DNA of 64,000 nucleotides. Source: Rhodococcus sp. 105337. Its GTDB lineage: Bacteria; Actinomycetota; Actinomycetes; Mycobacteriales; Mycobacteriaceae. Positions 6,351 to 46,599 of the stretch are shown in pieces. Below the pieces are notes generated by a model. The model did not search any database, was not told where the DNA came from, and was given only the letters and a program-made list of their open reading frames with translations. Position 1 is the first letter of the stretch. Each line of letters starts with the position of its first letter. The stretch is taken from the NCBI RefSeq assembly GCF_012844225.1, contig NZ_JABAGQ010000009.1, positions 1 through 64,000 of the forward strand, in the 5' to 3' direction. Made by a program: the position numbers and the translations under genes.

Positions 6351-6353
6351 GTG

Positions 6354-17100: not shown

Positions 17101-17792
17101 AGCGGGCGGTCTCTCAGCGCAGGCTCAAGGGTTTGGTCGAGGATGAATTCTTCGACGAAGTCCGGGGTTTGGAGAAGCGCGTACTTCTTCTTCGCGAAAT
17201 CCGACAGGTCTTGATACAGGTCGCCGAGGAATCGCGTCGAGAGGCTCTCGTCGTCGAACGACCACACCAACTCGCCCACGTCGTCGGTCCGTCGCCAGAA
17301 CCCGAGCAACTGCTGCACGACGTCTGAGGACGGGGAGATGATGTTGAGCGCAGCGTGTTCGTCGACCAGCGCCTGGGTGGCGGGGTTGCGGCGCAAGGCG
17401 TCGAAGGACTGTTCGAGCCACTCGCGGTAGGAGCAGTCCTGGTGTTCGCGGTAGAAGGCGTTCTCGGCATCAATGGCACGTTGCCGCAGCAGAGGGGTGG
17501 GGCCGGCGATCCACACCGCGGTGTCGCCGAGCAACAGGTTGTCTTCGCAGAATCGCACGAACACGGAGGTGAGCAGCCAGCCGACGGCGGCCTGGGTGAG
17601 CTGGTCTTCGGACCAGTCGGTCCACGACGTGGCGGTGCGCTGTTCACGCACGGCCTCGCGGTGGGTGGTGCGCCAGTTTTCGAGTTCGTGCGTGTCGGCG
17701 TTCAGCCGTGCCCGCATGTCATCGACCAGCAGGGTCAGTTGCGGCTTGAGTGCGGCCGTCAACTGGGCTCCGGCGATCGTGGCCAATGCCAT
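14172..17792 (-). CDS. pglX: BREX type 2 adenine-specific DNA methyltransferase PglX
   Basis: A 1206-residue N6-adenine methyltransferase of the PglX family, which in BREX methylates host DNA to mark it as self. The SAM-binding motif I is DPTCGSGHF at 238-246 and the catalytic motif IV is NPPY at 377-380. Length and architecture fit the family: a helical N-terminus, a Rossmann methylase core, then a long recognition region. The ATG overlaps the pglW stop by one base (TGATG). The specificity site cannot be read from the sequence. Methylome sequencing of the host would show a non-palindromic N6-methyladenine motif if the gene is active. Confidence 0.92.
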
Positions 17793-20700: not shown

Positions 20701-21910
20701 AGACGGCATCGGCCGGGGCACTGCCCGGCGCGACCGCGGTGCCGAGCATCGTCGCGGATCGGGTATCTCCTGTATGCACGCGACCGGCCCACGACCAGTC
20801 GGCGAGACGCACGCGTACCTCGCCTCGATCGAGAGCATCGGTGTGGACGAGCACGGTGCTCGGACCCAGGCCTCGGTGTGCGACGTGATTGCGGTGCGCG
20901 TAGGCGACGGCCTCGGCGGTCTGGGTGAGAATCAGCAGTTGCTGCTCCGCGGTGAGGGTGCGCGTCGCCAGGGCTAGATCAAGGGGTTCGTAGCCGGGGA
21001 TGTCCGGGTAAACGATGACGGTGTTGCCGTCGTCGTCCTGAACCAGATCACGAGGCGCGACAATCGCGTCGTGCCGCAGCGAGGAGAGCAGCGAGAACTC
21101 CCGTTGCATTCGTCGGTGCGACGCCGCCCGTGCCTGCACCGGGGTACCGCGGTGGAACGAAACGATCCGCGCGCGTGCGCGTTCGTCTGTGCCCTTGTGG
21201 GTGGCGGCCCATTCCTGCCAGTCGTCGCCGCTGGCCAGGGGGGTGCCGGTGATCGTCCACGACCCCGCGTCGCGTTCGGTGCGGCGTGCGATGCCCAGGT
21301 TCTTCAGTGCGAGGGCGATGATGACCGACAGGTCCTCGTCCACGCGCTTGGTCTCGGTGGGCGGCTCCAGTAGCCGGGTCGAGATGCCGGGCAGACCCGT
21401 CTCGTCCTCGAACCCGTCCGGGCCGAACAGCCCCGACTTCGCCAGGTCCGGCATGTCGACCTTGAAAGGGGCGCCATGAAGGAACACGGACTCCTGCACG
21501 AACGGCAGAGCGCGACGCACCTTCTCTGCGTTCAGGCCCGCTTGCTGAGCAACCTTGCGGGCCTCTTCCTCGATCCGTGTCGCCAACCGCTGGGCCTTGC
21601 GGCGAGTAACCAGCAGCGGGGAGCGCTGGGTACGGGTCTTGCCGCCGAGGGTGGTGCGCACCCAGCTGGTCTCTGTGCCCTGCAGGACGCCGGTGTAGTG
21701 CTTGAGTTCGACCAAATGCAGTCGGCGCCGGCCGAGAACCAGCGCGTCGATCTCGTGCCACTGTCCGTGGTTGTCCATGAACTCGAAGTTCGTCCACGCG
21801 CGGTAAGGGGACGCCTTGGGCACGATGTACCGAAGCATCGCCAGACCGTCGGTCTCGTGCGCGAACGCCGACTTCGAGACCTCGACCCAGCGATCATCGC
21901 TCTGTGCCAC
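17792..21910 (-). CDS. pglW: BREX type 2 serine/threonine kinase PglW with NERD domain
   Basis: First gene of the BREX operon, 1372 residues from a GTG start. Residues about 15-130 form a NERD (nuclease-related) domain with 'WHEIDALVLG' and 'LVELKHYTG'. Two protein-kinase-like regions follow. In the first (about 245-505) the catalytic loop reads HRGLGPS (345-351) and the DFG position reads ADW, so it should be a pseudokinase. In the second (about 535-790) a Gly-rich loop GAGSTARG is followed by Lys in VLKV (567) and an intact HRDLKPSN (659-666), but the DFG is replaced by DFS (686-688). The C-terminal half is mostly helical with no motif I recognise. The NERD-kinase order is typical of PglW in type 2 BREX. 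Confidence 0.92.
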   Translation of the reverse strand: MAQSDDRWVEVSKSAFAHETDGLAMLRYIVPKASPYRAWTNFEFMDNHGQWHEIDALVLGRRRLHLVELKHYTGVLQGTETSWVRTTLGGKTRTQRSPLLVTRRKAQRLATRIEEEARKVAQQAGLNAEKVRRALPFVQESVFLHGAPFKVDMPDLAKSGLFGPDGFEDETGLPGISTRLLEPPTETKRVDEDLSVIIALALKNLGIARRTERDAGSWTITGTPLASGDDWQEWAATHKGTDERARARIVSFHRGTPVQARAASHRRMQREFSLLSSLRHDAIVAPRDLVQDDDGNTVIVYPDIPGYEPLDLALATRTLTAEQQLLILTQTAEAVAYAHRNHVAHRGLGPSTVLVHTDALDRGEVRVRLADWSWAGRVHTGDTRSATMLGTAVAPGSAPADAVYQAPEDRWAPDADRLALDVFSLGALAYYLLSGGQAPARDRAALLERLRLEQGLDLAASGGGFVDETLRALVLQATAPSVSARMKTDRKTGRPEFGAQQFVAALSDYRHDRLATSAAPEADPLNPAPGALLGGRFDVVRVLGAGSTARGVLVTDREHDDQLRVLKVGLDDAATSRLHDEALVLTELARQSPPVPGVVELIEGPIELAHRTALLLSNCGEQTLADVVRYTPLGETQLRSWGKELLDVVVALDAAGITHRDLKPSNLGLAKPEGKAKAKARLALFDFSLSRAPVEQIDAGTPPYRDPFLGTGIRTSYDSAAERYSAAVVLYEMATSGTPVYGDGLSDPRVLDDDVSVSAEDFTAGGVSAARADALADFFRTALARDVKKRFDTAATMRDAWTAVFKAQTIEPASTPKKKPAPPPVPEPVQPIGSAATYTSLATLADEFARAAATKPSAIRRQVVELVLGSHPNSTDDPFMTYQMVAPRAGVSSGRIAQIFGEFPSLWAKNPQLAATVEDLYGRMLTLLELSGGASTPDLLAQKLAGALHTDGVENPQRTALGVLRLLLASPPHGENDEGGAAVAAVHMVRRHGSGTVAMISLPGVSRKLPAVLAARAEALVDAAQAQGSLLVAPAESESALRDATAALLDVAAGDVEIPGHALLRMAAASSTQVALSSRDELHARSMPILEALRMLLRGLSATDSFGRSELESRLAARFPALAKSLPRRPELDAVVLSLVPDMEWNDARARYQFVQEQAAASYVPTRHTRTPAPVHREHGTSDVEYLLASSVQERTFRALGVPLGTSDAVAAALVERFGATHIDVTELLLGSLRSKAATAGIDWNMILAADAGATADREGLKGFVAQAIPTLIEAISAASGPVVLTDLSTLAAYGQLDVLGRWTDLTTPPPHAVWALVPQRNEAGGRPGSKVDGTRLPINSPEQFAQIDDTEVSALLSVTVQPEDSTVKEHA

Positions 21911-32090: not shown

Positions 32091-35000
32091 GTGGTTGTGG
32101 ATTCGAGGGAGAACGATCCTGAACTGAAGGATCGTGTCCAGCGACTGCTGGCGTTCTTGTCCGAGCTCGTCAAAGCACGAAGTGCTCCTGTTCGAGTCCT
32201 CGAAAGGCACCGAGGCGTGATGGCACTCGACCAGGGCAACCTGGAGGTTGCTCTCAACACGGATGCGTCCGCGGGTGATGTCGTGATCCGAGCACACCGT
32301 GTGCATCTCGAGGACCCACCTCGCCCGCCCACCGCCATCGCTTCCTCCGTTCTGGGGTCGATCGCGGACTCGAGTGCCGAACCGACGCTCCACCCCGATG
32401 CGTCGGGGACGAGTGAGTTCGAACGATGGTTGGATAAGTGGCGTGCCTGGGCCGAGCTCGATCGGCAGCGCCGGCCCGCCTGGGATCTCTATGTGTTCCT
32501 GCAGCGCGCGATGCTGGAACTCGAAGCGCAGCCGGAATCACTGGAACTCGTGGCTGCGTCGGGACTACTCGAGCTCCCGCCCGACATTGCGGGAGAACGG
32601 GTACGCACGCACCTGATCACGCAGTCAGCGCTGGTCGAGCGGGACGCAGCATCGGGTGATCTGCTGGTACGACTGGATCCGGAATCCGCGCCCAGCCTCG
32701 AAGACACGCAGTTGCTGACGGGGCTGGAGGTTTTCGATTCAACCGGTACCCGAAGCCTGCACGAATCGTTGGCTGCCCGTGTGTGCTCGCCCATCGACCC
32801 TGCCGCCAAGATTTTCCTCAAGGATTGGTCGGACCGTGCCTTGACGACCCGCGTCGACGTCGTCGACCGACCCGACGACGCCCCGTCCAAAGACCGGTTG
32901 CTGACGCCGTCTCCCGCATTGGTCCTGCGTAAAAGAGGCGCGTACGCGCTGATCGAGTACTACGACCGCATGACCGCAGCCGCTGCAGACGAGACGGCAG
33001 GAGTCCCCCTGGGCTTGGCGCAACTCGTGGAGGCGATCGAACCCGCTGATCGGGTCGCGTGGTTGGACCGGGCAGGCACGTCGACATCTTCGCTGCTTGC
33101 CGACGACCCGCTTTTTCCGCTTCCTGCCAATCAGGAACAGCGAGATATCATAGACCGCCTCGCCGGCGACAGTGGTGTAGTGGTCGAGGGCCCGCCCGGT
33201 ACGGGAAAGACTCACACGATTGCAAACCTGGTGTCGGCGCTGCTGGCGCGCGGCCAGCGTGTACTGGTCACCAGCGAAAAAGCACAGGCGCTTCGTGTGC
33301 TCCGAGACAAATTGCCCGCCGAACTACAGGACCTGTGCGTTTCGGTGACCGACACAGGCCGTGGAGGATCTGCCGAGCTGAACCGAAGCGTCAGCGAAAT
33401 CGCCACCCGCAAGGCACAGTTCGACGTTCGGCGAACCGCCGCTCTCATCGACCAGGTAGCGCAGCAGCGTGACGCCGCGTTGAGTCGCCGAGCCGTACTG
33501 ACGGAGCGGATCCGGCAGTGTCGTGCTGCGGAAACGCTCTCGCACAACGATATCGCGGCGGGCTATGCAGGAACACCTGCGCAGATCGTGCAGAAGGTTT
33601 CGGCACAGAGCGCCAACCACGATTGGCTGCAGGGCCCGCTCCATGCGGATAGCCCACCGCTGACGCAGGAAGAGTTTCAGACACTGCTCGCGCTGACCGA
33701 ACGGTCCAGACCCGGACGTGCGGAGCGCCGACGGCAGTGGTTTCCGGATCTAGGTCTGCCGACACTGTCTGACTTCGAAACTGCATGCGAAGCGATTCGA
33801 AACGGAACCGGGTCGGATGACCTTCCCTCCTCTGGACTGGTTCGGACCTTGGAAGGTGCCGCCCCAGAGGCGCTCGAACGGCTCCGTGAACAATGTGAGT
33901 ACTTGCAGCAGGCTCTGAGCGATGTCGACGGGCTCGAACCTGCGTACCGGAACCTCGCAGATGCGGTGCTGTCCGGGGGGATCGACTACCTGTGGGAAAA
34001 GACCAGCCACATCCGCGAGCTGGTCACCACCGCGTACAACGCGGACATGTTCCTGGGGACAACTACTGTCGTCGACGCCCCGGTGCTCGGACGATCTGCG
34101 CTGCACGCGTACGACGCGCTCGCAAGGGCACTCGAGGGCGGTGAGGTGTGGCGAAGCGGTCTCGGACGTTTCCGCAGGAGCAACGAGCAGACCGCGGTGG
34201 AAGCACTGGGCTCAGTCGCTACCGTCGACGGCCTCGAAGCCACTACTGCACAGCGCGCCCGTGCGGTTGCGGAGCATCTTCGTGCGCTCGATGCCATCCA
34301 GTCCGTGGCGCTGATCCTCCGCGATCTGGGCATCGATATGGAGACCACCGGCTCTCGTAGCCAGATTATCGGTGCAGCCGCGCGGGCCGCGCGGGCACGC
34401 GACCTGATTGAAGTGCTCGCAGCGCGAACCAAGGAAGTCGAGCTCGCGCTGCGGCAGGTGAGCCCCGGAGTACCGCGTATCGCGAGCCTGGACCAGGCCA
34501 GATCGGTGGCGACCGCGGCGCAGGCAATTGCCGCAGCTGCTTATGCAGAGGCAAACCGTATCTGGCTGACGGACACTGCGTCTCGTATTCGAGCCGAGCT
34601 GACCCACGGGGTTCCCCCGGAAGGGCACCTCCTCGCCCGGGCCATCGAGTCCGCCGAATTCGGAAGGATCCGCACGGCGATCGATTCCTGGGAAGCCGCG
34701 GTCCGCGAATATCAGGAGGAACTCCATCTCGAATCGCTGCACACGCGCTTGACGGAAAAGGCGCCCGCGCTGGCACAGGCGATCTCCGAGAACCCTTCGT
34801 CGTCGGAGTGGTCGGTGCGCCTGACCTACATCGAGCAGGCCTGGGCGTGGCGTCGTGCACACGATTGGGTCCGGCAGAACTCCCGAGGCGTAGACGACGA
34901 CAACCAGCTCCAGCACGAACTCGACGCGACCGAGAACGACATCGCCCAGTTGACCGCGCGATTGGCTGCCGAACGAGCATGGAGTGCTTGTCTCGGGCGA

Positions 35001-37511
35001 ACGACGGCTGAGCAGGTGCAAGCACTGCAGACGTATCGCGACCACGTGTCCAGTATCGGTAAGGGGACCGGCAAGTACGCCGAGCGGTTCCGGGCGGGCG
35101 CACGTGAAGCGATGCAGGTGGCGCAACGCGCGGTTCCGGCGTGGGTCATGCCGCTCCAGCAAGTATTGTCATCCATTCCGGCCGAACAGAATTCGTTTGA
35201 CGTTGTGATCGTCGACGAGGCGAGCCAGGCTGATATCAGCAGTTTGTTCCTGTTGTGGCTCGCGCCCCGGGTGATCGTCGTGGGTGACGACAAGCAGTGT
35301 GCACCCAGTGATGTGTCGTCAGGTGCTCTCGACGGTGTGTTCACCCGGCTCGACTCCTACTTGCCCGACGTGCCGAAGTACCTGCGCGACAGTTTCACAC
35401 CTCGATCCAGTGTCTTCTCGCTGCTCCGCTCGAGGTTCGGAAGCGTTATCCGCCTGCGGGAACACTTCCGGTGCATGCCTGAGATCATCAACTGGTCCAG
35501 CGGTCAGTTCTACTCCGACGCACCGTTGGTGCCCGTGCGCCAGTTCGGTGCCGATCGGCTGCCGCCCCTGCGCACCACCTTCGTCGAAGGTGGAGTGGTC
35601 ACCGGGCGGAATGCGACCCTCTCCAATCGAATCGAAGCTCGCGCTATTGCCGACGCGATCAAACGGTGTCTGTCGGACGAAGCGTACGACGGCAAGACGT
35701 TCGGTGTCGTGGTGCTTCAGGGACAAGCGCAGGTCGACATCATCACGAACGAATTGCTCGACCGGCTGACACCGGAGCAATGGGAACAGCGTCGATTGCG
35801 AGTAGGTACGCCACCGGATTTTCAGGGGGACGAACGTCACGTCGTCTTCTTGTCGATGGTCGTGGCGCCCGAACAGAACATCGCCGCGATGACGAAGACC
35901 GAGTACCAGCGCCGCTTCAACGTTGCTGCGTCGCGTGCCCAGGATCAGATGTGGCTGTTCCACTCACGGAGCCTGGAATCGCTGCGCTCAACCGACCTGC
36001 GGCATTCGCTGCTCACCTACATGCAATCGACTTCTCCTGCGCCGGCAGAACCGATGCCCGAAGGCGTGAAACGCGACGAACGCCATCAAGCGTTCGACAG
36101 TCTCTTCGAACAGCGCGTGTTCCTCGACATCGTGGCGCGTGGTTATCACGTGAATTCGCAGGTCGCGGTGAACGGTCGACGGATCGATCTCGTAGTCACG
36201 GGCGCGGACGGAAAATTGGCGGTCGAGTGCGACGGCGACCACTGGCACACGAGTCCCGAACAGCAGCGTGCGGACCTCGAGCGGGAACGAGAACTGCAAC
36301 GCTGCGGATGGCAGTTCTGGCGTATCCGCGAGTCGGAGTACTACCTCGATCCGGTGGGATCGATGATGGGTCTCTGGGAGGAGCTCGACAGGCGCGGCAT
36401 CAGGCCGCACGTTGTCGGTGTGAACGACGTCGTAAAGTCCCTGCAGGAGAGCTGGACTCCGGTAGAGCTCGTGGAGGATGACTCGCCGGTCGATGACGTA
36501 GTGGATGTGGCGGAGCAGCCGGTCATTCGTCCGGTGCCCACCGTCGTCGAGCATGCTTCGGTTCCTGTTATCGAACACTCGGAGGAACGTGCAGAGCCGC
36601 CCGCCTGCACGGGTGAGGTCGAACATCTTCCGCTGGAGGAAACCGCGACGCCGACACTCGTGTCACCCGCCCAGACACCGGTACCGGTGGTCGACCCGGC
36701 CGTCGAGAGCGGACCGGTGCGCACACTACGAGCCGCCATCCTCGAAGAACTGGAGCGCGAACCCCTCCCCGTACGTGCGCTTGCGCAGCGTCTCGGCGAA
36801 GACTGGCGGAGCGTCCAGACAGAGGTTGATCGCCTTCAGCACGACGGACGCGTCGAGGAAGTCAACGAGTTCGGGAAGCTGACCCACTATCACCTGATCG
36901 GTGGTCTCTCCCCGGTTGAAGACCTTGAGCTGTCGCACGGCGTCGAGAACGTGACACCGTCCGATCCAGGCGTAGCAGTTCCCGAACCCTCTGCCACACC
37001 GACATTCGTACGTGGCTGGGAAGTAATGCCCGCGGCGGCTACCTCGATACTTCCTCCGAGCCTCGGCTCGCGCATCTTGGAACGCCTCGCCGCCGATCCG
37101 GTTTCGCTGGCAGACCTCGAATACCGGTTGAACGAACCGAGAGACCGGATCGAAGCGATCATGGGGGAGCTGATTGCCCAGGGTCGCGCGAAGTGGATGC
37201 CCGAACGTGGCCCGCGTGTATACGGATTGGCAGACGAGGTGTCGCCTCTCATCGACGCCGCTCCCCCTGTGCACCCCGCGGCCCAGGAGGCAGTCACCCT
37301 TGCGGATCTGCCGCCGGCACACCTCGATTCTGTCGCCGACGTGTTGGTTACGGCTGCCGGATTCGCTGCTTTGTCGTTGGAACGGGCACGGAAGCTGACC
37401 CGACTCGACGATGAGCGCCTTCTCGTCGTTCTCGAAGATCTGGAAGCAGAGGGCCGGTTGCGCAAGAACTCCGCCGGTGCAGGAGTCACGTGGACCGAGG
37501 CGGGCCGATGA
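32091..37511 (+). CDS. Giant SF1 helicase with Vsr-like nuclease and winged-helix tail (Hhe-like)
   Basis: An 1806-residue protein starting at GTG 32091; a second GTG at 32097 is equally plausible. Residues 1-340 form an N-terminal region without a motif I can name. Walker A GPPGTGKT is near 367-374 and the Walker B DEASQAD near 1041, split by a long helical insertion, as in UPF1-like SF1 helicases. Motif 'LREHFRC' and 'NVAASRAQD' complete the helicase. Around 1340-1440 lies a Vsr/MTES_1575-type nuclease: 'RRIDLVV' then 'AVECDGDHWH' (about 1376-1385). After an acidic linker, three winged-helix-like repeats occupy about 1540-1800. The layout is close to DUF4011-helicase-Vsr defence proteins. 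It is coupled to the next gene by ATGA. Confidence 0.85.
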   Translation: MVVDSRENDPELKDRVQRLLAFLSELVKARSAPVRVLERHRGVMALDQGNLEVALNTDASAGDVVIRAHRVHLEDPPRPPTAIASSVLGSIADSSAEPTLHPDASGTSEFERWLDKWRAWAELDRQRRPAWDLYVFLQRAMLELEAQPESLELVAASGLLELPPDIAGERVRTHLITQSALVERDAASGDLLVRLDPESAPSLEDTQLLTGLEVFDSTGTRSLHESLAARVCSPIDPAAKIFLKDWSDRALTTRVDVVDRPDDAPSKDRLLTPSPALVLRKRGAYALIEYYDRMTAAAADETAGVPLGLAQLVEAIEPADRVAWLDRAGTSTSSLLADDPLFPLPANQEQRDIIDRLAGDSGVVVEGPPGTGKTHTIANLVSALLARGQRVLVTSEKAQALRVLRDKLPAELQDLCVSVTDTGRGGSAELNRSVSEIATRKAQFDVRRTAALIDQVAQQRDAALSRRAVLTERIRQCRAAETLSHNDIAAGYAGTPAQIVQKVSAQSANHDWLQGPLHADSPPLTQEEFQTLLALTERSRPGRAERRRQWFPDLGLPTLSDFETACEAIRNGTGSDDLPSSGLVRTLEGAAPEALERLREQCEYLQQALSDVDGLEPAYRNLADAVLSGGIDYLWEKTSHIRELVTTAYNADMFLGTTTVVDAPVLGRSALHAYDALARALEGGEVWRSGLGRFRRSNEQTAVEALGSVATVDGLEATTAQRARAVAEHLRALDAIQSVALILRDLGIDMETTGSRSQIIGAAARAARARDLIEVLAARTKEVELALRQVSPGVPRIASLDQARSVATAAQAIAAAAYAEANRIWLTDTASRIRAELTHGVPPEGHLLARAIESAEFGRIRTAIDSWEAAVREYQEELHLESLHTRLTEKAPALAQAISENPSSSEWSVRLTYIEQAWAWRRAHDWVRQNSRGVDDDNQLQHELDATENDIAQLTARLAAERAWSACLGRTTAEQVQALQTYRDHVSSIGKGTGKYAERFRAGAREAMQVAQRAVPAWVMPLQQVLSSIPAEQNSFDVVIVDEASQADISSLFLLWLAPRVIVVGDDKQCAPSDVSSGALDGVFTRLDSYLPDVPKYLRDSFTPRSSVFSLLRSRFGSVIRLREHFRCMPEIINWSSGQFYSDAPLVPVRQFGADRLPPLRTTFVEGGVVTGRNATLSNRIEARAIADAIKRCLSDEAYDGKTFGVVVLQGQAQVDIITNELLDRLTPEQWEQRRLRVGTPPDFQGDERHVVFLSMVVAPEQNIAAMTKTEYQRRFNVAASRAQDQMWLFHSRSLESLRSTDLRHSLLTYMQSTSPAPAEPMPEGVKRDERHQAFDSLFEQRVFLDIVARGYHVNSQVAVNGRRIDLVVTGADGKLAVECDGDHWHTSPEQQRADLERERELQRCGWQFWRIRESEYYLDPVGSMMGLWEELDRRGIRPHVVGVNDVVKSLQESWTPVELVEDDSPVDDVVDVAEQPVIRPVPTVVEHASVPVIEHSEERAEPPACTGEVEHLPLEETATPTLVSPAQTPVPVVDPAVESGPVRTLRAAILEELEREPLPVRALAQRLGEDWRSVQTEVDRLQHDGRVEEVNEFGKLTHYHLIGGLSPVEDLELSHGVENVTPSDPGVAVPEPSATPTFVRGWEVMPAAATSILPPSLGSRILERLAADPVSLADLEYRLNEPRDRIEAIMGELIAQGRAKWMPERGPRVYGLADEVSPLIDAAPPVHPAAQEAVTLADLPPAHLDSVADVLVTAAGFAALSLERARKLTRLDDERLLVVLEDLEAEGRLRKNSAGAGVTWTEAGR

Positions 37512-39268
37512 CGACGGTTACCCCCGCCGGGACGCCTCTTCGTGCCTGGCAGCGCGAAGCCTTCGATGCCTGGGTGGCGGCCGACCGAAGTGCCGTGGTG
37601 GAAGCCGTCACGGGCTCCGGAAAGACAACGCTCGGTATCGCGGCGGCCGCGGACGCAGTCGCGCGCGGCCTGGACGTCTTGATCGTCGTGCCCGGGATCG
37701 AACTGCTGGACCAATGGCATCGATCAATTCGGCGCGTTCTCCCGGATATCCCCGTCGGTCGACGTGGCGGTGGGTACGCGGACAGTTTCGATGGCAAGCG
37801 GATTCTCGTCAGCACGGTGCAGTCGGCGATCAGTAGATCGGCGCCGCGTCCGGTCGCGCCGACGCTGCTGGTCGCCGACGAAGTGCACCGATACGGCGCG
37901 CTGACGTTTTCGCGACTGCTCACCGACGACTTCACGGAACGGATCGGTCTCACCGCCACGTTCGAGCGGTCCGACGACGGCGTCGAACGGCATTTGATGC
38001 CCTACTTCCGCACGGTCATCAACGGTTGTGATTACGAGCGTGGTCATGCCGACGGCATCCTCGCGCCCGTGCGAGTCATGCTTGTCGCGGTGCCGTTCGA
38101 CGAGTTCGAGGCGGCCGAATACCAGGAATACGACGAGCTGGCACGCAAGCTCCGGGGTGATCTCACTGAGAAGTTCGGATGCGCGGGGGAGCCCTTCGGT
38201 GAGTTCATGCGCGACGTTCAGCTGCTCAGTGGAGGGGAGAGCGCCGAGGGTTCGACATGGGCCGCCCGGAAGTATCTTTATGCGTTCTCGAAGCGTCGCT
38301 CGCTGCTCGCCGAGTGCCGCGGAAAGCTCGAGGCTCTGAGGGGCCTCGGTACCGTGCTCAAGGAGACCGGGCAGGCACTCACCTTCTCGGAGACGAAGGA
38401 TTCGTCGCGTGCCGCCGCTGAGGTGCTTCTCGAAGAGGGTGTGCTCGCCGCACCGTTCACGAGCGACCTGAAACGTGCGGACCGAGCGCGGCTCCTCACC
38501 GAGTTCAAGAACGGTACGGTAACCACGCTCGTCGCTCCGAAGGTTCTCGACGAAGGTGTCGATGTTCCCGAGGCGGACGTCGGAATCATTCTGGCGAGCA
38601 GTAAGAGTCGCCGACAGATGATTCAGCGTATGGGGCGAGTCATCCGGCCGAAATCCGATGGCCGACCGGCTTCTTTCCTGGTGATGTTCGCGGAGAACAG
38701 TTCTGAAGATCCCAGGAACGGGGCTCACGGAACCTTCCTGGAACAACTCACGGGAATTGCCTCCGAAGTGGTGACGGTCGGTCCTGGCGATGCACCTGCG
38801 CTGCTTCGTGAATGGATGCAAGCCGCTCCCCAGGGCCCGGACACTCTGTTGCCACTCGCTGAGCCTCCACGTCCCTCGGAGTCGCGAGTTGATTCGCCAA
38901 CGGCCGAAGAAGTCGTCGCAATCGCGCAGCGGTTGGTTGACGATGACGCGCCCGAAGACGTAGTCACTGGTAGCGAACACGCCGAGATCGGTCGTGTCCT
39001 GCTCGAGGTGGGTGAACGGGGAACTGTCGATGATTTCGACACGGTTTTGGCATGCTTGTCGATCCTCGAACCTCGGCAGGTCTCCGTGCTCGTCATGCGT
39101 TTCGGCCTCGGTGGTGAGCGACCGAAGCGCCAGGCGGAGGTCGGAGCACGGCTCGGTGTCTCTTCGAGTCAGGTGAGTCGAATAGAGAGGACGGCCATCG
39201 AGTACCTGGGAGACACCGTCGCGGGTGAGCTGCTGTCGGACGTGATGGTGCGGATGGAGGCCGTGTAA
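37508..39268 (+). CDS. SF2 (XPB/Rad25-like) helicase fused to a sigma-70 region 4-like helix-turn-helix
   Basis: 586 residues from the ATG overlapping the previous stop (ATGA). A DEAD/DEAH SF2 core carries TGSGKT at about 35-40, DEVH near 122, 'GLTATFER' and the C-terminal motif 'RRQMIQRMGRVIRP'. The C-terminal about 60 residues (about 516-575) read 'LEPRQVSVLVMRFGLGG...EVGARLGVSSSQVSRIE', the pattern of sigma-70 region 4, which normally contacts the -35 element. The helicase core resembles those of type III or phospholipase-D type defence systems; the sigma-like tail is unusual. It probably reads specific DNA or recruits RNA polymerase. It is coupled downstream by TAATG. Confidence 0.85.
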   Translation: MTTVTPAGTPLRAWQREAFDAWVAADRSAVVEAVTGSGKTTLGIAAAADAVARGLDVLIVVPGIELLDQWHRSIRRVLPDIPVGRRGGGYADSFDGKRILVSTVQSAISRSAPRPVAPTLLVADEVHRYGALTFSRLLTDDFTERIGLTATFERSDDGVERHLMPYFRTVINGCDYERGHADGILAPVRVMLVAVPFDEFEAAEYQEYDELARKLRGDLTEKFGCAGEPFGEFMRDVQLLSGGESAEGSTWAARKYLYAFSKRRSLLAECRGKLEALRGLGTVLKETGQALTFSETKDSSRAAAEVLLEEGVLAAPFTSDLKRADRARLLTEFKNGTVTTLVAPKVLDEGVDVPEADVGIILASSKSRRQMIQRMGRVIRPKSDGRPASFLVMFAENSSEDPRNGAHGTFLEQLTGIASEVVTVGPGDAPALLREWMQAAPQGPDTLLPLAEPPRPSESRVDSPTAEEVVAIAQRLVDDDAPEDVVTGSEHAEIGRVLLEVGERGTVDDFDTVLACLSILEPRQVSVLVMRFGLGGERPKRQAEVGARLGVSSSQVSRIERTAIEYLGDTVAGELLSDVMVRMEAV

Positions 39269-40485
39269 TGGCGCAGTGGTTCGAAGGGTTCGACGGCCAG
39301 GTCGTCCTCGAGGACGATTACGTCTGGATCGTGCGTGAGGGAATCCCCAGCGGTTGTTTCTCAGAGCCGACAGCGCGGCCGATCCGCGCGCTGCGCGGCG
39401 ACGTCGTCGGCACCGACTTCAAGTCTGCGACCGAATCCAGTTTCGGCTCGTTACGGATCAATGTCTCAGCGGGAGCCGCTGCCACTGACTCAGTTGTACA
39501 CAACGACGTCGTGCGCTTCTCGGCGGGAAGTAACGACCGATTCTCCGCGCTCAACTTGCTATTGGGCGGGAATCCCGAAGTGGTAACAGAGCCGATGAGC
39601 ATCGGTGATCAGCTCCGTGCCGCGCTCGACGCGTTCGAAGGAATCGCCAGTCAAGCCGAGCTGGCCGACTCGCTCGGTGAAGTCCCTGACGTTGTGCAAA
39701 CCCATGACGGCGTCATATGGAACTCGGTCGGGTCGCTGTGGATGGCTGCAGGCGGGACCGAGGGTGCGGCCGCTGCTGTACAACTGGAGCGGATCCGAAC
39801 TCTGAACGATCTGACTCGACGATTGCCGGCGAACTCCGGGATAAAGGTGTTGCAGAAAGCCGTGAAGGGAACACCCCTTCACCACCTCGGCGCCCAGCGT
39901 CTCGGCACGCTGTGGGAAGCCGTCATGTCGGAGGCATTGCCTGACCCTGTGCAGTCTTCCGGTCCCTCGGGTCTCCGCGCGAATTCGAAGCCGGCACCGG
40001 CAGCTTCTCGACGCGCCGCGACCAAGCACACGGCCCGTCCGCGAACGCAAGTGTGGAACAAGGAGGACAGTGTCGAGACGCGCGATGGTTCACCTCGTCC
40101 GAGTGGGGCGCGTGTTTCGAGTCCGACGGACGCCTCGAACGCTCCGACCACCCTGTCCCGTGTCGCCGAGTCGGGGCCGGCCCGGGCTCGATCTACACGA
40201 GTCATCAGTGCGCTCAGTGGCAAGAGGATTCGCGTCTACCTCGACTGTGATGGTCACCGAGTGAAGGCGTTGTTCGATCCCGATAGCAAGAAGATGGATG
40301 TGACGGTCGCGCCGGTTCGCGCTCTCTTGGGTGCGACATACCCGGACCCCGACGCCGCCGCGGCGGCCGTGGTGTCGGCGTTCAGGCTCGGTGATGAAGG
40401 TCCGTTCGACGGGTGGGAACTGTGGAAAGTGGACGACACCTCGATGCGGACGCTGCGGGAGTCCGTGAGCAAGTCGTTCGAGTAG
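39268..40485 (+). CDS. Uncharacterised protein with RAMA-like C-terminal domain
   Basis: A 405-residue protein beginning one base into the stop of the helicase (TAATG), so the three genes are translationally coupled. The N-terminal about 100 residues look beta-rich. Residues about 115-230 are helical. A disordered Ser/Arg/Pro-rich linker spans about 230-310. The C-terminal about 90 residues ('GKRIRVYLDCDG', 'YPDPDAAAAAV', 'DGWELWKVDD..MRTLRES') have the outline of the RAMA domain, predicted to read modified DNA and often attached to restriction enzymes. The RAMA call is by pattern and is the weak point. The protein may be the target-recognition subunit for the two helicases. Confidence 0.6.
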   Translation: MAQWFEGFDGQVVLEDDYVWIVREGIPSGCFSEPTARPIRALRGDVVGTDFKSATESSFGSLRINVSAGAAATDSVVHNDVVRFSAGSNDRFSALNLLLGGNPEVVTEPMSIGDQLRAALDAFEGIASQAELADSLGEVPDVVQTHDGVIWNSVGSLWMAAGGTEGAAAAVQLERIRTLNDLTRRLPANSGIKVLQKAVKGTPLHHLGAQRLGTLWEAVMSEALPDPVQSSGPSGLRANSKPAPAASRRAATKHTARPRTQVWNKEDSVETRDGSPRPSGARVSSPTDASNAPTTLSRVAESGPARARSTRVISALSGKRIRVYLDCDGHRVKALFDPDSKKMDVTVAPVRALLGATYPDPDAAAAAVVSAFRLGDEGPFDGWELWKVDDTSMRTLRESVSKSFE

Positions 40486-40563
40486 GTAATGGTTCAATAG
40501 GGACCGATCGACCATCCCATGATGATGGCGTCGGTGTGGTCTCGGGCGGCATCAGGAGGATCT

Positions 40564-41490
40564 GTGAGTGACAGTTTGTGGCGCGGTGACGGGTTCGACC
40601 TCCGGCTTCGTCGTGAGGCAATGGCCTGGTTGACCGTGCGAACAAACGACGGACTCGATCCGATCAGTCGCCAGGACTTACTCGACTTCACGATCGATGG
40701 GAAGATGTTCCGGCTGATGGACCCGACGCGCGGGATTCGGAAACCCAAGGAGCTTTCTTCTGCTTTGTCCATCAGCACGACGTACCGCGCGCCCGGTGCG
40801 AAGCGTCCGTACGAGGATCAGGTCGGCTCGGATGGGCTTCTCCGCTACAAATGGTCGACGACCGACCCAAACAACATGGACAACAGGGGATTACGCGCTG
40901 CCATGAATGAGGGCGTTCCGCTGATCTGGTTCTACGGCGTGGGGCCGAGTTTGTTCCAGCCCATCTATCCGGTGTTCATCGTCGGGGAAGAACCTGGCGA
41001 ACATCAGTTCGTCATCGCCACAGAAGTCGCTCGCGATCTCCACCGTCCCGATTCGCAAGCCGAGGCGCAGCTTCGGCGTTACGTAGTGGCCGAGACGAAA
41101 CGTCGGCTCCATCAGCCTGTCTTTCGTGCCACTGTCATGCGTGCATATGAAACGCGATGCGCGGTCTGCGCTCTCGGACATAGCGAGCTGCTCGATGCTG
41201 CGCATATCGTGCCCGACTCGCACGACGCGGGTATTGCGTCGGTGACCAACGGGCTTGCTCTGTGCAAGATCCACCACGCCGCATACGACGTGAACATCCT
41301 TGGCATTACGCCGGATTTGGTCGTAGAGATCCGGAAAGATCTTCTCGACGAGATCGACGGTCCGATGCTCGAGCACGGTCTCAAGGAGCGGCACGGCCAG
41401 AAGCTCATGGTGGTTCCGCCGGCTCGCAATGAACGCCCTGATCCAGAACTCCTGGCGACAAGTTACAAGCGTTTTCTCAGCGCCGGGTAA
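40564..41490 (+). CDS. HNH endonuclease, restriction-type
   Basis: 308 residues from a GTG at 40564 preceded by AGGAGG. An ATG 45 bp earlier is open but lacks a ribosome-binding site. The C-terminal HNH domain is clear: 'CAVC' zinc knuckle, 'LDAAHIVPDSH', then 'NGLALCKIHHAAYD' with the second zinc site, typical of putative restriction HNH enzymes. The N-terminal about 180 residues are a separate domain, with 'DQVGSDGLLRYKW' and 'PLIWFYG', that probably senses DNA. It follows the helicase operon by 79 bp on the same strand and could be its nuclease or an independent modification-dependent enzyme. Confidence 0.85.
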   Translation: MSDSLWRGDGFDLRLRREAMAWLTVRTNDGLDPISRQDLLDFTIDGKMFRLMDPTRGIRKPKELSSALSISTTYRAPGAKRPYEDQVGSDGLLRYKWSTTDPNNMDNRGLRAAMNEGVPLIWFYGVGPSLFQPIYPVFIVGEEPGEHQFVIATEVARDLHRPDSQAEAQLRRYVVAETKRRLHQPVFRATVMRAYETRCAVCALGHSELLDAAHIVPDSHDAGIASVTNGLALCKIHHAAYDVNILGITPDLVVEIRKDLLDEIDGPMLEHGLKERHGQKLMVVPPARNERPDPELLATSYKRFLSAG

Positions 41491-41595: not shown

Positions 41596-44466
41596 TCATC
41601 GCTTGTCTGCCGAAGGGGCAGATCGGTCGAGGTCGGTGACGCCGAAGAACTCTGTCACTCGGTTCAGGGTGTGCTCGTCGCGGAGCCTGCAGGCAGAATT
41701 CTGGTTCGCGAACAAACCGGCCTCGCGCAGTGCAGACTCGCGGTCGACAGTCCGTTCCCAAACGACGGGAACGATCCACTCCTGGTAGTCCTCGTCAGGG
41801 TCCGGGTTGTCGATCTCGTGCGTGTACGGACCGACCAGGTCGAGACTGCGGAAACTGACCTGCTTGCCGTCGACCTCGAGTGTCGCTCGGTCCGCCGGAG
41901 CGGCGGAGCCGGCGACTGTTCCGGCACCGACGTAGCCGACCTTCGGGACGTAGACGAAAACGCGATCTCCGACCTGAAGGTTCTTGAGGGTGTCGGAATA
42001 CCAACGGCCTCCGCCGGCTGACACGAACCCGTACTTGCGCGCGTCGTCCCAGTTTCGGGAATCGTTGACTTCGCCCAGGCAGACGTACCAGTCCTGCCCG
42101 TTCCACTCGGGCTTTTCCGAGGTCGGCGTCAGGTTCGTGTTTTCCGTCGTGGCCGGCTTTTGCGACGTACGGGTCGAGGGAGATGCCTTCGAGGCGGATT
42201 TGTTGGCCGTGTATCCGAACTGTGTGAGTCGATGCCGGGCGACATCGAGCTCCGTGTCGGTGAACAGTGTTTCGAAAGTGGGCTCGATGACGAGCGCCTC
42301 CACTGTGAGGTCGATGCGTCCTCGTTCCCACAGCTCGGAGAAGCCGTCCGAGATGGTCCTCGAGGCAAGGAGCTTCTTTGCTGTACCCAGAGGACCGATG
42401 TTCGCGACCATGCTTATGAAGTGGGTGGCGTTGTAGCCGGCTTCGCGTCGAGCACGGTCATAGAGCTCGCGGATGCGGGAACCGAACTCCGACTCGAGTT
42501 CGCTCGTTTTGTCGCCAGCTTCCTCGAGCAACTCTTCCGGTTCGGTCGACTCCGGGACGCCGGCAGCGGCCTCGTTGAGGTTGTTGACGAAACCGAGCAA
42601 AGCGTCCACGGATGTGAACACCTTGTAGCCGAGTTCCTCGAGACGTGGCAGGTCGGCTTCATCGGGATCGAGTTCGAGGATGACAGGATCGCCGACGCCG
42701 TGCTGCAGGCCGTCGGGCCAAAACGCTTCTGCCATGGACAGGAAGCGCCCGTTCGCGGGATCGGTGATCTCGGTGTCGACCTCCGGTTCCGCGAATCCGA
42801 GGTCGCGAAGCTCCGCGATCATTGCCTGAATCTGCAGAGTTCTCGGGTCATCGGGCTCTGTTTCCGTGACGGCGAGCGGCTGCAGCGACTCCTCTGCGCT
42901 TTGAGAACCGGACCGGAGCTCTTCCAAGAATGATTGGGCTGCCTCTGCGAGAAGTTCACGCCGTGCTGCGAGGAAGTCCGGGTAGCGGTCGACGGTCCAC
43001 AGTGCCGGATCGGTCGGAATCCACTGAGACGCGAGTACACCGGGATTCTTTGCTTCGACTTCCGCAAAGTACTTCTCCGGCGCACTCTTGCCAATCTCCA
43101 GGTTGGTGGCTTGGGTGAGGAAGCAGAAGTTCGCGATCGCATTGATCTCGTTGCGGTCGTATCGATCGCGCAGCAGGGCCTTCGGGAAGATGTGGTGGAC
43201 CTGCAGACTGGTGAGTTTTCCGAGCAGCTCTGCACGCAGTTCCAGCCCGCTGCCGAAGTCCCGGGCGCCCTTCACACGGGTGAGGAGGTAGAGCAAGGGG
43301 TAGAAGCGGGAGCCTCGCGTGGATCCGTCGAAGTCGTGCGGAAGCAGTTCGAGGTTTCCGCCGCGGACACGTTCGAGCGTGGCAATCAAACCGTCGACTC
43401 CGGAGTCTCGCACGGTGTCGTAGTCCTGTTGAAGGTAGCTCTCCGTCGACCCGCTGAAGCGACCCCAGAGCGCCGAGTGGACATACCAGTACAGGACTTT
43501 GTCGCGCTGAGCGGCGTCCGTGAACTTACCGCCGTTCAGTTCGAGCAGACGCGACACCACCGGGATCGCGTAGCGCCCCATCAGTACCCTGTCGTGGTCG
43601 AGACCGAGTCGTCCGGAAACTGCGTCGAGGAAGGTGCCGATGTGGGCGACCGACGATGTGAGCGCGCGCTCGAACTCGTCGGCTTGCACGCTGCTCAGTG
43701 CGGTAAACAGTGCACGCCCCCTCGCAACCGCGGTTGCGTTGCGCAGCAGCCAGTCCAAAGTGAAATCGAAGCCGGCCTTCTTCCACACCGCGAGGCTGTC
43801 GCGCATCACCTGACGGGCGGGTGGCCACTGTGCGCACAACGACGCGAGCGCAAGGTCGCCCTTCGAGAGTTTGGTGCCACCGGAGTTCACTCGGTTGAAG
43901 ATGTCGACCACCTCATCGACGGACTTGTCCAAACCGGTGATCTTCTCGACGTTGAACTCACGCTGCATAATCTGCGACAACGTGTTCAGGCGGTCGAGGT
44001 AGGTACTGGCCTTCTCGGCGTGGTTGGTAAAGGCGGTGAAGAAGGGCTTCAGACCCTCGCGGAACAATTGAGTGACACTCACCCAACACGGGTCCTCTGC
44101 CATGACCATCGGGCGATAGAACTCGAAGACTTCCGACTCGACGTTGAAGTACAAACCCGTGAACGCAGAGGGATCGCCTTCGAAGAATGGGGGAGGGGTG
44201 CCACGCACCACGCCGTACAGAGAGGTGACGCGCTGTTGCCCGTCGAGCAGAAGCTGCCGAACACCACCACTGGTGACCTCGCCACGTACAGCGATCTCAT
44301 TGGTCGCGGTCTCCCACATCAACAAGCCGCCCACGGGATAACTCCGGTAGAGCGAGCGCATCAGGCCTCGGACCTGATCCCGATTCCAGACGTAGCCGCG
44401 TTGAAACTCGGGGAGAAGAACGGTGCCCGAGTCGATCTCGTCGAGCAGGGTGGACAATTTGGGCAT
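41596..44466 (-). CDS. GmrSD-type DUF262/HNH restriction protein with EVE-like C-terminus
   Basis: A 956-residue single-chain relative of the GmrSD type IV restriction enzyme, which cuts DNA carrying modified cytosines. The DUF262 (GmrS-like) N-terminus has 'FQRGYVW' (21-27) and the nucleotide-binding DGQQR box (75-79). 'VHHIFPKALL' near residue 425, followed by 'NAIANFCFLT', is the HNH of the DUF1524 (GmrD-like) part. A helical domain with 'FSELWERGRIDLTVEALV' lies near 700-730. The last about 150 residues ('WYVCLGEVND', 'VGDRVFVYVPKVGYVG') resemble an EVE-like reader. It starts with ATG after an AGAGG element, 39 bp downstream of the UvrD-like gene with which it is co-transcribed. Confidence 0.85.
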   Translation of the reverse strand: MPKLSTLLDEIDSGTVLLPEFQRGYVWNRDQVRGLMRSLYRSYPVGGLLMWETATNEIAVRGEVTSGGVRQLLLDGQQRVTSLYGVVRGTPPPFFEGDPSAFTGLYFNVESEVFEFYRPMVMAEDPCWVSVTQLFREGLKPFFTAFTNHAEKASTYLDRLNTLSQIMQREFNVEKITGLDKSVDEVVDIFNRVNSGGTKLSKGDLALASLCAQWPPARQVMRDSLAVWKKAGFDFTLDWLLRNATAVARGRALFTALSSVQADEFERALTSSVAHIGTFLDAVSGRLGLDHDRVLMGRYAIPVVSRLLELNGGKFTDAAQRDKVLYWYVHSALWGRFSGSTESYLQQDYDTVRDSGVDGLIATLERVRGGNLELLPHDFDGSTRGSRFYPLLYLLTRVKGARDFGSGLELRAELLGKLTSLQVHHIFPKALLRDRYDRNEINAIANFCFLTQATNLEIGKSAPEKYFAEVEAKNPGVLASQWIPTDPALWTVDRYPDFLAARRELLAEAAQSFLEELRSGSQSAEESLQPLAVTETEPDDPRTLQIQAMIAELRDLGFAEPEVDTEITDPANGRFLSMAEAFWPDGLQHGVGDPVILELDPDEADLPRLEELGYKVFTSVDALLGFVNNLNEAAAGVPESTEPEELLEEAGDKTSELESEFGSRIRELYDRARREAGYNATHFISMVANIGPLGTAKKLLASRTISDGFSELWERGRIDLTVEALVIEPTFETLFTDTELDVARHRLTQFGYTANKSASKASPSTRTSQKPATTENTNLTPTSEKPEWNGQDWYVCLGEVNDSRNWDDARKYGFVSAGGGRWYSDTLKNLQVGDRVFVYVPKVGYVGAGTVAGSAAPADRATLEVDGKQVSFRSLDLVGPYTHEIDNPDPDEDYQEWIVPVVWERTVDRESALREAGLFANQNSACRLRDEHTLNRVTEFFGVTDLDRSAPSADKR

Positions 44467-44505: not shown

Positions 44506-46599
44506 TCAGATAAGCGGGGTGAGGAACGGGCTGGGTTCGCCATGCCAAGTCACCGACAGTTGCTCTCGCGCACGAGTACATGCGACGAACAGGAGAGAGC
44601 GTTCGCGTTGTACGTCGCGCTCGTGGCTGTGTTCGTCCTCGCTCACCGGGGTAACGGCATATGGAGCGGGAATCTGTTTACTGGTAGCGGCACCGACAGC
44701 CAGGCAACGAAACTCGAGACCTTTCATGCGGTGCATCGTTCCGATCGAGACACCGTCGTTGCCGTTGCGCGAGTCGGACAAGTCGGAATTCGGGATGCCC
44801 TGTTTCGTGAGAACACCCGCAAGGGACTCCCCGATTTTTTTGGACCGTACAGCGATCCCGATCTCCGACGGCGCGATTCCGCTTTCGATCCACTCCTGCA
44901 CTTTGTCGGCAATGAAAGCGAACTCGACATCTCGCGTTCCGAAGCCTCGAACGGCGGGGTGATCGCCGTGAATGTCCGAGCGACAGCCGGCAATCGAGTC
45001 GAACTGGTCGTTCATGTCGTCGATGCGACATCCCTGTATCAGGCCGAGACTCCACCGCAGAATCTCTGCAGTGGTGCGGTAGTTGATAGACAGACGGTTG
45101 GATCTTCCCGTTACCTTGATGCCGAGCTCGCGCAGACTGACATGGTTGTTGTAGATGCGCTGATGGGTGTCACCGGCGAGGAACAGGTCGTCTGACGCTT
45201 CCGGCACGGCAGCACGCAGGAACCGCCACTGATCGGGGCTCAGGTCCTGAGCTTCGTCGACAACAATGTGGCGGTAGGGCTTGTAGTCGCGTTGTTCGAG
45301 AATCTTCGTCGCTTCTCGACGCACGGTTTCGTGCGTGTGCAGCGCACGTGTCTTCAGTGCTTCTTCGAATTCCCAGACTGCTTGCCACACCTGTGCTTTC
45401 TGAGTGGCACCGAGTCGCCGCCCTCTACCTGTTCGCTTGGCAGCGAGGTACTCAGTTGCAGAACTGACACGTTGCGCGAGCACCACCTGGCGCCACTCTT
45501 CGCCGAGAAACGCTTCGGTGAAATCGATGTCCAGGTCGTCGATGATGCTTCGCCAGAGCTTCTTCTCGTCCGCGGAACTGACCATGTGGGGGCTACCGTG
45601 CACATCGCGGAAAACACGATGAGCGAGACGGTCGACGTGCTGGACGTCGATGCGGGACGTGACGTCGGAACCCTCAGCGAGCAGTTCGATGCCTTCTCCG
45701 AGTGAATCGGACAAGGTCGAGGTGAAGGTTGTCACGAGGACTTGTCCTTCGCCCCGTTCAGCCAATCGGCGTGCACGATGCAGCGCGACGACGGTCTTAC
45801 CGGTTCCCGGCCCGCCCGTTACACGCGCCGGTCCCCGATAGGTTGCATCCACCGCGGCCCGTTGCGCGGGGTGGAGATAGATCCGCCATAAAGCGAAGGG
45901 GTGGGCGAAGACCGCCATCATCTCCGCAGGACCGTCGACGAGAAGCACGCGGTCGGAGCTGCGTTTGATTGCGGCGTCGAGGTCGTCGGTGTCCACGGGT
46001 CCGTCGAGGATTTCGGCTCCGAGATCTGACCACACCTCGTCGGGAGTCATGCCGGCAGCGAGGCCGTAGAGGACCTGCCACTGGATAGTGGGGAAGTAGG
46101 GTTGGGCTGCGTCGAGCTGGGAGTCCTCAGCCAGCAGCCGCGCGAAGCGTATTGCCTTCTCGTCCAGTCCGAGCCGGGCAAGTTCGTTGTCCTTGACGTG
46201 CTCGAACAAATAGCTGGCAGAGACATTCTCGGATTCGTGATCGAGATGAGCCAGCTGCTCGTCAAGTGCGGCGTCATCGCGGACTTCGATGCCGCCGGTC
46301 GCTTGGTTGACGGAGACGTCGCGACGCTCCGCCCACACATACGCATCGTCGTGGGGTAGAACTTTCAGGAGAGTGTAGGTGTCCCCGTTCTTGGGGGCCA
46401 GCACGATGCCACGCCAGAACTGCGTGATGCGGATCGACCGGAAAAGGGGATTGCGTGCGTTCTTGATCTTCTCGAGATGGAGACCCGAGTGTGTGGCGGA
46501 GTCGAACTTCTCGAACACCTCTGTGACTCGAGCTTGGACTGTCGACTCGAGCTTCGTGAAGTCGAGGAGGAAGCCCTTGTCGATCGCAAGTGTTGCCAA
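44506..46599 (-). CDS. UvrD-like SF1 helicase with RelE/ParE-like N-terminus
   Basis: A 697-residue protein starting at TTG 46599. The first about 95 residues ('HLEKIKNARNP..RSIRI', 'DTYTLLKVLPHDDAYVWA') have the shape of a RelE/ParE toxin fold. The rest is a UvrD/Rep-type helicase: Walker A GGPGTGKT at 262-269, 'VVDEAQDL' near 453, 'INYRTTAEI', and C-terminal 'TMHRMKGLEF' and 'ACTRAREQL'. Proteins with this layout are common next to defence genes; whether the RelE-like part is active is unknown. It is the first gene of a pair with the DUF262/HNH protein, suggesting a helicase feeding a modification-dependent nuclease. Confidence 0.85.
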   Translation of the reverse strand: MATLAIDKGFLLDFTKLESTVQARVTEVFEKFDSATHSGLHLEKIKNARNPLFRSIRITQFWRGIVLAPKNGDTYTLLKVLPHDDAYVWAERRDVSVNQATGGIEVRDDAALDEQLAHLDHESENVSASYLFEHVKDNELARLGLDEKAIRFARLLAEDSQLDAAQPYFPTIQWQVLYGLAAGMTPDEVWSDLGAEILDGPVDTDDLDAAIKRSSDRVLLVDGPAEMMAVFAHPFALWRIYLHPAQRAAVDATYRGPARVTGGPGTGKTVVALHRARRLAERGEGQVLVTTFTSTLSDSLGEGIELLAEGSDVTSRIDVQHVDRLAHRVFRDVHGSPHMVSSADEKKLWRSIIDDLDIDFTEAFLGEEWRQVVLAQRVSSATEYLAAKRTGRGRRLGATQKAQVWQAVWEFEEALKTRALHTHETVRREATKILEQRDYKPYRHIVVDEAQDLSPDQWRFLRAAVPEASDDLFLAGDTHQRIYNNHVSLRELGIKVTGRSNRLSINYRTTAEILRWSLGLIQGCRIDDMNDQFDSIAGCRSDIHGDHPAVRGFGTRDVEFAFIADKVQEWIESGIAPSEIGIAVRSKKIGESLAGVLTKQGIPNSDLSDSRNGNDGVSIGTMHRMKGLEFRCLAVGAATSKQIPAPYAVTPVSEDEHSHERDVQRERSLLFVACTRAREQLSVTWHGEPSPFLTPLI

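Follow-up and report, generated by a model that had tools for sequence, protein, structure and literature searches.

An SF1-Vsr helicase-nuclease coupled to an XPB-like helicase with a sigma-like tail: candidate core of a DNA-interference module in Rhodococcus and related genera

Four consecutive forward-strand genes in a 64,000-nucleotide stretch of the 4.46-Mb genome of Rhodococcus sp. 105337 (the window; contig G000:C34, NZ_JABAGQ010000009.1) raise the question of whether they form one defence system or, if not, which of them belong together. G1 (32091..37511, 1806 amino acids) encodes a superfamily 1 (SF1) helicase with an MTES_1575/Vsr-type nuclease, and G2 (37508..39268, 586 amino acids, ATG start at 37508) an XPB-like superfamily 2 (SF2) helicase with a tail resembling region 4 of sigma-70. 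G3 (39268..40485, 405 amino acids) has a DUF4429-like N-terminus, a middle part without match and a RAMA-like C-terminus, and G4 (40564..41490, 308 amino acids) is an HNH endonuclease gene that likely starts at the GTG at 40564, with an ATG at 40519 also possible. The G1 stop overlaps the G2 start as ATGA, the ATG of G3 begins on base 39268, the last base of the G2 stop (TAATG), and 78 bases separate the end of G3 from the G4 GTG. The reading frames and overlaps given in the initial annotation are therefore confirmed. The strain is close to R. ruber, and the four genes share 72–97% identity with their counterparts in R. ruber NBRC 15591 (L030). G1 and G2 are seen here as the core, and G3 as the variable reader part.

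The order of the four genes is kept in three other genomes of the same genus (G003, G007 and G012; three-digit G numbers are genomes and L numbers loci). Ratios of nonsynonymous to synonymous substitution (dN/dS) in the set are 0.05–0.24, which are rough values, since dS approaches or exceeds 1 in many of the comparisons and one of those for G4 is absent. The gene set is taken to be more than chance because of this recurring order and these ratios. All four genes together were seen only in the window and these three genomes, and the earlier view of them as one conserved set is not borne out. The unit conserved across genera is the pair G1-G2, rather than all four genes.

This is evident from a pattern-based scan of the genome collection with a G2 alignment, which gave 172 confirmed places, the best 80 of which are the G2 loci described here (G003 and G007 are identical to L030 and L031, drawn from two collections). 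G1 lies directly upstream of G2 on the same strand in 24 of the 80 (L030–L049, L051, L062, L066 and L070), spanning Rhodococcus, Rhodococcoides, Gordonia and Speluncibacter, with contig ends cutting into G1 in four (L032, L037, L044 and L047). Five further loci, in Nocardia and Hoyosella, have a G1 relative on the opposite strand at most 4 kb from G2, L057 has a distant G1-like reading frame downstream, and the remaining 50, some on short contigs, contain no G1 match. The G1 stop overlaps a possible G2 start by 4 nucleotides at all 25 readable junctions (22 ATGA, 2 GTGA and 1 TTGA); these include the window and L016, count L043 twice and exclude L032 and L044. G1 and G2 distances are correlated (r 0.92 over 22 pairs, reached in 0 of 2000 permutations), partly through shared species history. 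The paired G2s form one clade (support 96/81), and the genes flanking the pair vary among groups of loci. Directly 3' of G2 in L043 (11763-12578) and L048 (11659-12519) there are homologous genes of 271 and 286 amino acids without Pfam match.

The SF1 helicase of G1 is recognised by Pfam (AAA_11, 60.9 bits; AAA_12, 54.5 bits) and has a Walker A motif, GPPGTGKT, and a Walker B motif, VDEAS. The MTES_1575/Vsr restriction endonuclease domain (PF18741) scores 101.2 bits against a cut-off of 38.2 at residues 1339–1432 (IDLVV...VECDGD), and the last 370 residues, a tail that may consist of winged helices, give weak helix-turn-helix and winged-helix Pfam matches below cut-off. The G1 core is found in 30 of 246 genomes of the class at E 1e-60, the window's genome counted. 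Forty G1 places, not every listed row and two of them on contigs shorter than 9 kb, were fetched outside the G2 search. In 39 there is no G2 match of at least 60 bits in the stretch, many of them having the ECDGD motif; the sole place with G2, L158, is in the same Gordonia genome as L045.

The 26 paired rows in a tree of 71 G1 cores, which count one genome twice (L045 and L158), all share one clade (99/97) with four unpaired rows. The nuclease glutamate is kept in 24 of the paired rows and is glutamine in two, and it is replaced by alanine in three of the four unpaired G1s, namely those of G002, G004 and contig C33 of the window's genome. This is suggestive, without being proof, of a nuclease that depends on G2 within this clade. 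The C33 copy (L157:9951-14270) is a second, shorter G1, 66% identical to that of the window, with the glutamate-to-alanine change and no G2 match in its stretch. It is unlikely that G1 is instead a self-sufficient, single-gene defence protein of the PDC-S37 or Hhe kind, with G2 and G3 regulating or boosting G1 or its expression and taking no part in a complex that finds targets. The many G1 places that have the ECDGD motif and no G2 fit such a protein, and the sigma-like tail could act on transcription. The start/stop overlap and co-inheritance with a conserved XPB-type ATPase, and the glutamate lost from three unpaired members of the paired clade, speak against it.

G2 has an SF2 helicase core (Helicase_C, 69 bits; ResIII, 68.3 bits; XPB C-terminal domain, 45.6 bits) with the motifs GSGKT, DEVH and QRMGR, and its best-matching relatives of solved structure are the archaeal helicases XPBII and RAD25 (E about 1e-29). 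Tail residues 516–565 match Sigma70_r4 (PF04545) at 40.4 bits against a cut-off of 24.1, and this family matches 12 of 24 scanned G2 members at E ≤ 0.1, 21 of the 24 being pair-type. The tails align with sigma region 4. A −35 recognition helix like VTRERIRQIE is present in three aligned genes for complete sigma factors and in none of 15 aligned G2 tails, and the loss of this helix weakens the case for promoter reading by the tail. It is quite possible that the tail is a generic helix-turn-helix for holding DNA and is uninformative about RNA polymerase, which would be compatible with G1-G2 as the core of a defence module. Besides the missing helix, the sigma-type helix-turn-helix domains of other defence proteins, BrxL and some DndH, are in keeping with this (PMC12839542 and PMC10853773, in part). 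Contrary to it, complete sigma-70 genes stand beside the pair in 3 of the 80 loci, and XPB-like helicase-sigma-70 fusions exist in another lineage.

The three complete sigma-70 genes after the pair (L034, L039 and L066) are the only tblastn matches of this kind in the 80 loci. In Rhodococcoides kyotonense (L039) the gene begins at the base immediately following the G2 stop. In L034 (11692-14442) and L066 (11674-14430) there are genes for a ParA-like ATPase, a small protein and a sigma-70 factor, and the run is G3-like, G1, G2 and these three. A profile of the G3 N-domain matches the N-terminus of this sigma factor at 35.9 and 39.6 bits, with no match from Pfam itself. That complete sigma factors recur is a point in favour of a tie to transcription.

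XPB-like helicase-sigma-70 fusions are encoded at four loci outside the pairs (L212, L213, L238 and L239). Those on Paenarthrobacter and Pseudarthrobacter plasmids (L212:8908-11877 and L213:8908-11880) consist, by Pfam, of the helicase and sigma regions 2 and 4, with an HA domain in addition. Fusions were also recognised by tblastn in genomes G224 and G425, which were followed up from a search of 296 class genomes that is dominated by housekeeping sigma factors and yields no frequency. No G1 match was found within the 19–20 kb around any of the four fusions. In the G2 tree the fusions are a clade of their own (100/99). Between it and the paired clade (96/81) stand lineages among which are relatives with tails too short for region 4 (L050, L052, L054, L057, L059, L064 and L067). 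The sigma link therefore arose more than once or was often lost, and the fusions are a separate protein family. At E 1e-40, G2 has relatives in four plasmid records out of 72,556, and none of these covers more than 80% of the query; in 50,697 phage records there is no match at E 1e-20.

G3 has no Pfam domain above cut-off, and the earlier description of it as RAMA-like stands in part. RAMA (PF18755) scores 13.6 bits against a cut-off of 35.2 on the C-terminal part (about residues 309–403). Profile-profile comparison of the G3 C-terminus with 14 true RAMA domains by hhalign gives 96.7% over 44 columns (95.75% for the G3-type alone), and 60 shuffled controls reach 5.4% at most; the alignment covers the C-terminal half only. 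Judged by these profiles, the C-terminus is RAMA-like. The N-terminal part appears DUF4429-like by homology, since the L020 protein aligns with it at 32% and matches DUF4429 over the same part at 31 bits (cut-off 25); for the G3-like L034 protein the score is 17.4 bits, under the cut-off. Full-length G3 is confined to one genus, in 4 of 41 related genomes (the window's own, G003, G007 and G012), and among 200 genomes of the order the window's copy is the sole full-length one, with six partial. A plasmid search with G3 (72,556 records, E 1e-5) was without match. Against solved structures there was no match by profile search and one meaningless match (E 0.26) by sequence search. It evolves fastest of the set (dN/dS 0.15–0.24).

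G1-G2 is often accompanied by a RAMA-type domain, the position of which varies. A RAMA-like profile, built from 11 of the sequences themselves, matches 8 of the 24 pair loci. The domain is part of G3 in L030–L032, and in L034 and L066, which were not seeds, it is in an upstream G3-like protein of 730 amino acids (79 and 72 bits). In Gordonia (L042, L045 and L047) it is fused to the C-terminus of G2, and matches the G3-type domains at 98.7%. Across 1023 predicted proteins, a profile made from the 14 true RAMA domains has six strong matches of at least 50 bits, one each in L038, L046, L062, L070 and L053 and one in a window gene outside the set. A gene 75 bp after G2 in L038 (11764-12729) has a true RAMA domain (57.7 bits by Pfam) and a VRR_NUC-like part just under cut-off, and true RAMA is found in a divergent gene adjoining G1 in L046, L062 and L070. 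In total, a domain of this type, true RAMA or RAMA-like, occurs within G2 or in an adjacent gene at 12 of the 24 pair loci, in five arrangements. A separate branch, Williamsia L053 and Tsukamurella plasmid L216, has an XPB-like helicase with a RAMA-like end (30% by tblastn with almost the entire L019 protein). In L053 a divergent gene adjoining the XPB-like gene has true RAMA, while in L216 (7776-10996) the helicase has an unnamed domain and a standalone Vsr endonuclease gene comes next, overlapping its stop. The eukaryotic RAMA protein MPND is described as binding DNA irrespective of N6-methyladenine (PMC9963953, in part).

G4 matches HNH_2 at 36.6 bits against a cut-off of 21, and no solved structure at E 0.1. 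The helicase, Vsr, sigma-like and HNH domains named in the initial annotation are found by Pfam in G1, G2 and G4. In 18 genomes of the genus, G4 is full or nearly full in seven, with a contig-edge fragment in an eighth. Four of the seven have G1-G3, and three (G002, G004 and G015) have G4 without G2 and G3. In G002 and G004, G1 ends early, there is no G2 match and only the last part of G3 is present, while in G015 none of G1, G2 and G3 is found within the 18 kb fetched around G4. Apart from the window and L016, only 2 of the 24 pair loci (L030 and L031) have G4 close to G2; the other 22, some with cut contigs, have no G4 match, and in L032 G3 is followed by a different gene. With dN/dS of 0.05–0.06, G4 is about as slow as TerC (0.06–0.09). 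It is probably an optional neighbour, not a fixed member. In L014 a piece of the end of the GmrSD-like gene (6886-7191) adjoins G4, with a complete copy at a distance of 4 kb (9-2873), which looks like insertion of genes between G4 and GmrSD.

It is very unlikely that the four genes are nonetheless one obligate two-nuclease system in which elsewhere a different HNH protein replaces G4. The complete ordered set in the window and three other genomes of the genus, and the HNH_2 gene that adjoins G1 in L036, L039, L040 and L041, would fit such a system. The occurrence of G4 without G2 and G3, its absence from most pair loci, and the different rates of G4 and the faster G3 do not. As G4 is separable and G3 is missing from some pair loci, an obligate four-gene system was discarded as the unit. 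Independent homologues, which the initial annotation had put forward as evidence against the set, do occur for G1, as its 39 places without G2 show, and for G4. They do not for G2 of this type, which has G1 in 24 of 24 loci. The unit is therefore redefined as G1-G2 with a RAMA-type reader, instead of four fixed genes.

The genes around the set are of the defence type. Convergent with it on the reverse strand is a gene for a GmrSD_N/HEC-05-like protein with a PDC-S11-type C-terminus (41596..44466), and a gene for a UvrD-like helicase has the same strand (44506..46599). Also on that strand is a type 2 BREX system (4260..21910; BrxHI, BrxD, PglZ, BrxC/PglY and PglW), with an Eco57I-type N6-methyltransferase within its stretch (14172-17792). 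Between BREX and the ter genes a SLFN-g3 helicase protein is encoded (22252-24171, reverse strand, 297 bits), with copies 86–87% identical in L017 and L018. A true RAMA domain (47687-47914, reverse strand, 43.8 bits) ends another island gene outside the set, which is PDC-S14-like in PADLOC. At nine other loci, ten of ten large neighbours, hand-picked and not random, match PADLOC models at 1e-10 or better (MzaB, MzaC, Orf5/HEC-06/mREase_IV twice, DpdE, BrxHI, PDC-S02/REase_II, ZacC, DrmMI and LeoBC). The earlier account of a multi-gene unit with named domains in a defence island agrees with these data; none of the NCBIfam models scanned is above cut-off, and the PADLOC matches are partial.

These neighbours bear on whether the pair serves immunity or DNA repair. 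Vsr proper is a mismatch endonuclease, and the best solved relatives of G2 are archaeal XPBII and RAD25. A repair or transcription-coupled-repair module, similar to XPB/Bax1 or RadD, in which the Vsr-type nuclease nicks lesions or mismatches, would account for both. It is a distinctly improbable explanation, given the patchy distribution, the varying flanks and the defence-type neighbours that stand against it. The MTES_1575-type relatives of G1 are likewise described in a restriction-system context (PMC3710099, in part).

The domains, the coupling and co-inheritance of G1 and G2, the RAMA-type domain in half of the pair loci, the recurrent sigma association and the defence-island setting point, with moderate confidence, to G1-G2 as the core of a multi-subunit module for DNA interference, directed at phages or plasmids and probably at phages. 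In this module G2, with the reader, would select the DNA and G1 would be the helicase-nuclease effector. In the proposed order of events, G2, as an XPB-like translocase on double-strand DNA, would act as scout and loader. It would be placed on particular DNA by its sigma-region-4-like tail together with a RAMA-type reader, in G3, fused to G2 or in a neighbouring gene, and what is read may be the modification state, a promoter or the RNA polymerase context. G2 would then recruit or release G1 onto the invading DNA, presumably by physical contact, and G1 would unwind the DNA with its SF1 motor and nick or cut it with the Vsr-type nuclease.

A more specific version, which is doubtful, is immunity by way of transcription. 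Here an XPB/TFIIH-like motor, held by its sigma part to a sigma factor, RNA polymerase or promoter DNA, would deliver the helicase-nuclease to transcribed foreign DNA, and the RAMA-type reader would sort self from non-self. If this is true, the complete sigma-70 genes and the XPB-sigma-70 fusions would be variants of one transcription-watching principle. A functional sigma tie would give immunity a route for watching transcription, and a bacterial parallel to XPB at promoters.

Several points weigh against G1-G2 as the core of a defence module, in addition to the share of species history in the distance correlation and the hand-picking of the PADLOC-matched neighbours. G1 needs no G2 in most lineages, because G1 alone is far more widespread. 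The fourth unpaired G1 of the paired clade (L161) retains the nuclease glutamate, and there the aspartate after ECDG is alanine. The glutamate-to-alanine change probably counts as one event because the three sequences that have it are sisters. Eleven of the 24 pair loci have no RAMA-type domain by either profile, L044 being cut, and the divergent RAMA genes of L046, L062 and L070, which are close kin, may be part of a GmrSD-like system of their own. A separate point weighs against G4 as an optional neighbour: HNH_2 genes adjoin G1, on the same strand in L036 and on the opposite strand in L039, L040 and L041, although they are unmatched by the G4 search and look unrelated to G4.

How the pair differs from known systems can be seen gene by gene. 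The MTES_1575-type proteins, with an SF1 helicase, a Vsr endonuclease and a winged helix-turn-helix, were reported in 2013 (PMC3710099, in part), and G1 has the same helicase type, the same Vsr subfamily and perhaps a winged-helix tail. It differs in that HEPN and transglutaminase, present in the MTES_1575 giants, are not among 25 of the 26 Pfam families listed for G1 at E ≤ 1, and in its coupling to an XPB-like helicase. The helicase and the Vsr-type C-terminal half of G1 resemble Hhe (NF042953), ProA (NF058533) and PDC-S37, with partial matches of 122.5, 163.7 and 188.6 bits. The best stretch in the PADLOC model of PDC-S37 is 753-1338 of 1550, and PADLOC's own Hhe model gives 97 bits. Identification of G1 as Hhe or ProA was rejected at NCBIfam cut-offs of 2000 and 1500. 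Hhe and ProA are single-protein entries, as PDC-S37 presumably is, whereas G1 sits in a multi-gene unit.

The helicase core of G2 is similar to the phosphorothioate-linked SF2 helicases TIGR04095 dnd_restrict_1 and PbeA (145.5 and 202.6 bits), but these matches stop before the sigma tail and the partner of G2 is an SF1-Vsr protein; with a cut-off of 600, G2 is not assigned to TIGR04095. Similarly, G4 was not accepted as a phosphorothioate-binding SBD-HNH enzyme (NF045808), the match being to the HNH part alone at 63.3 bits with a cut-off of 180. Archaeal XPBII and RAD25 have the helicase core in common with G2, and the sigma-like tail sets G2 apart from them. The nuclease partner of archaeal XPB is Bax1, in place of which G2 has SF1-Vsr. 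BrxL and some DndH have the sigma-type helix-turn-helix in common with G2, but their motors differ, and the portions available of their accounts mention no complete sigma-70 gene or fusion, unlike the G1-G2 loci (PMC12839542 and PMC10853773).

The G1 type has therefore been known since 2013 and sigma-type helix-turn-helix domains from BrxL and some DndH, while the coupled SF1-Vsr/XPB-sigma pair is apparently undescribed, no description having been found in the literature searched, which was mainly open-access. Helicase-Vsr defence is known in the form of single proteins. One lineage of these proteins now forms a unit of two motors, the second of which is repeatedly linked to a sigma factor, whether through its tail, through an adjacent gene or, in a separate clade, through complete fusion.

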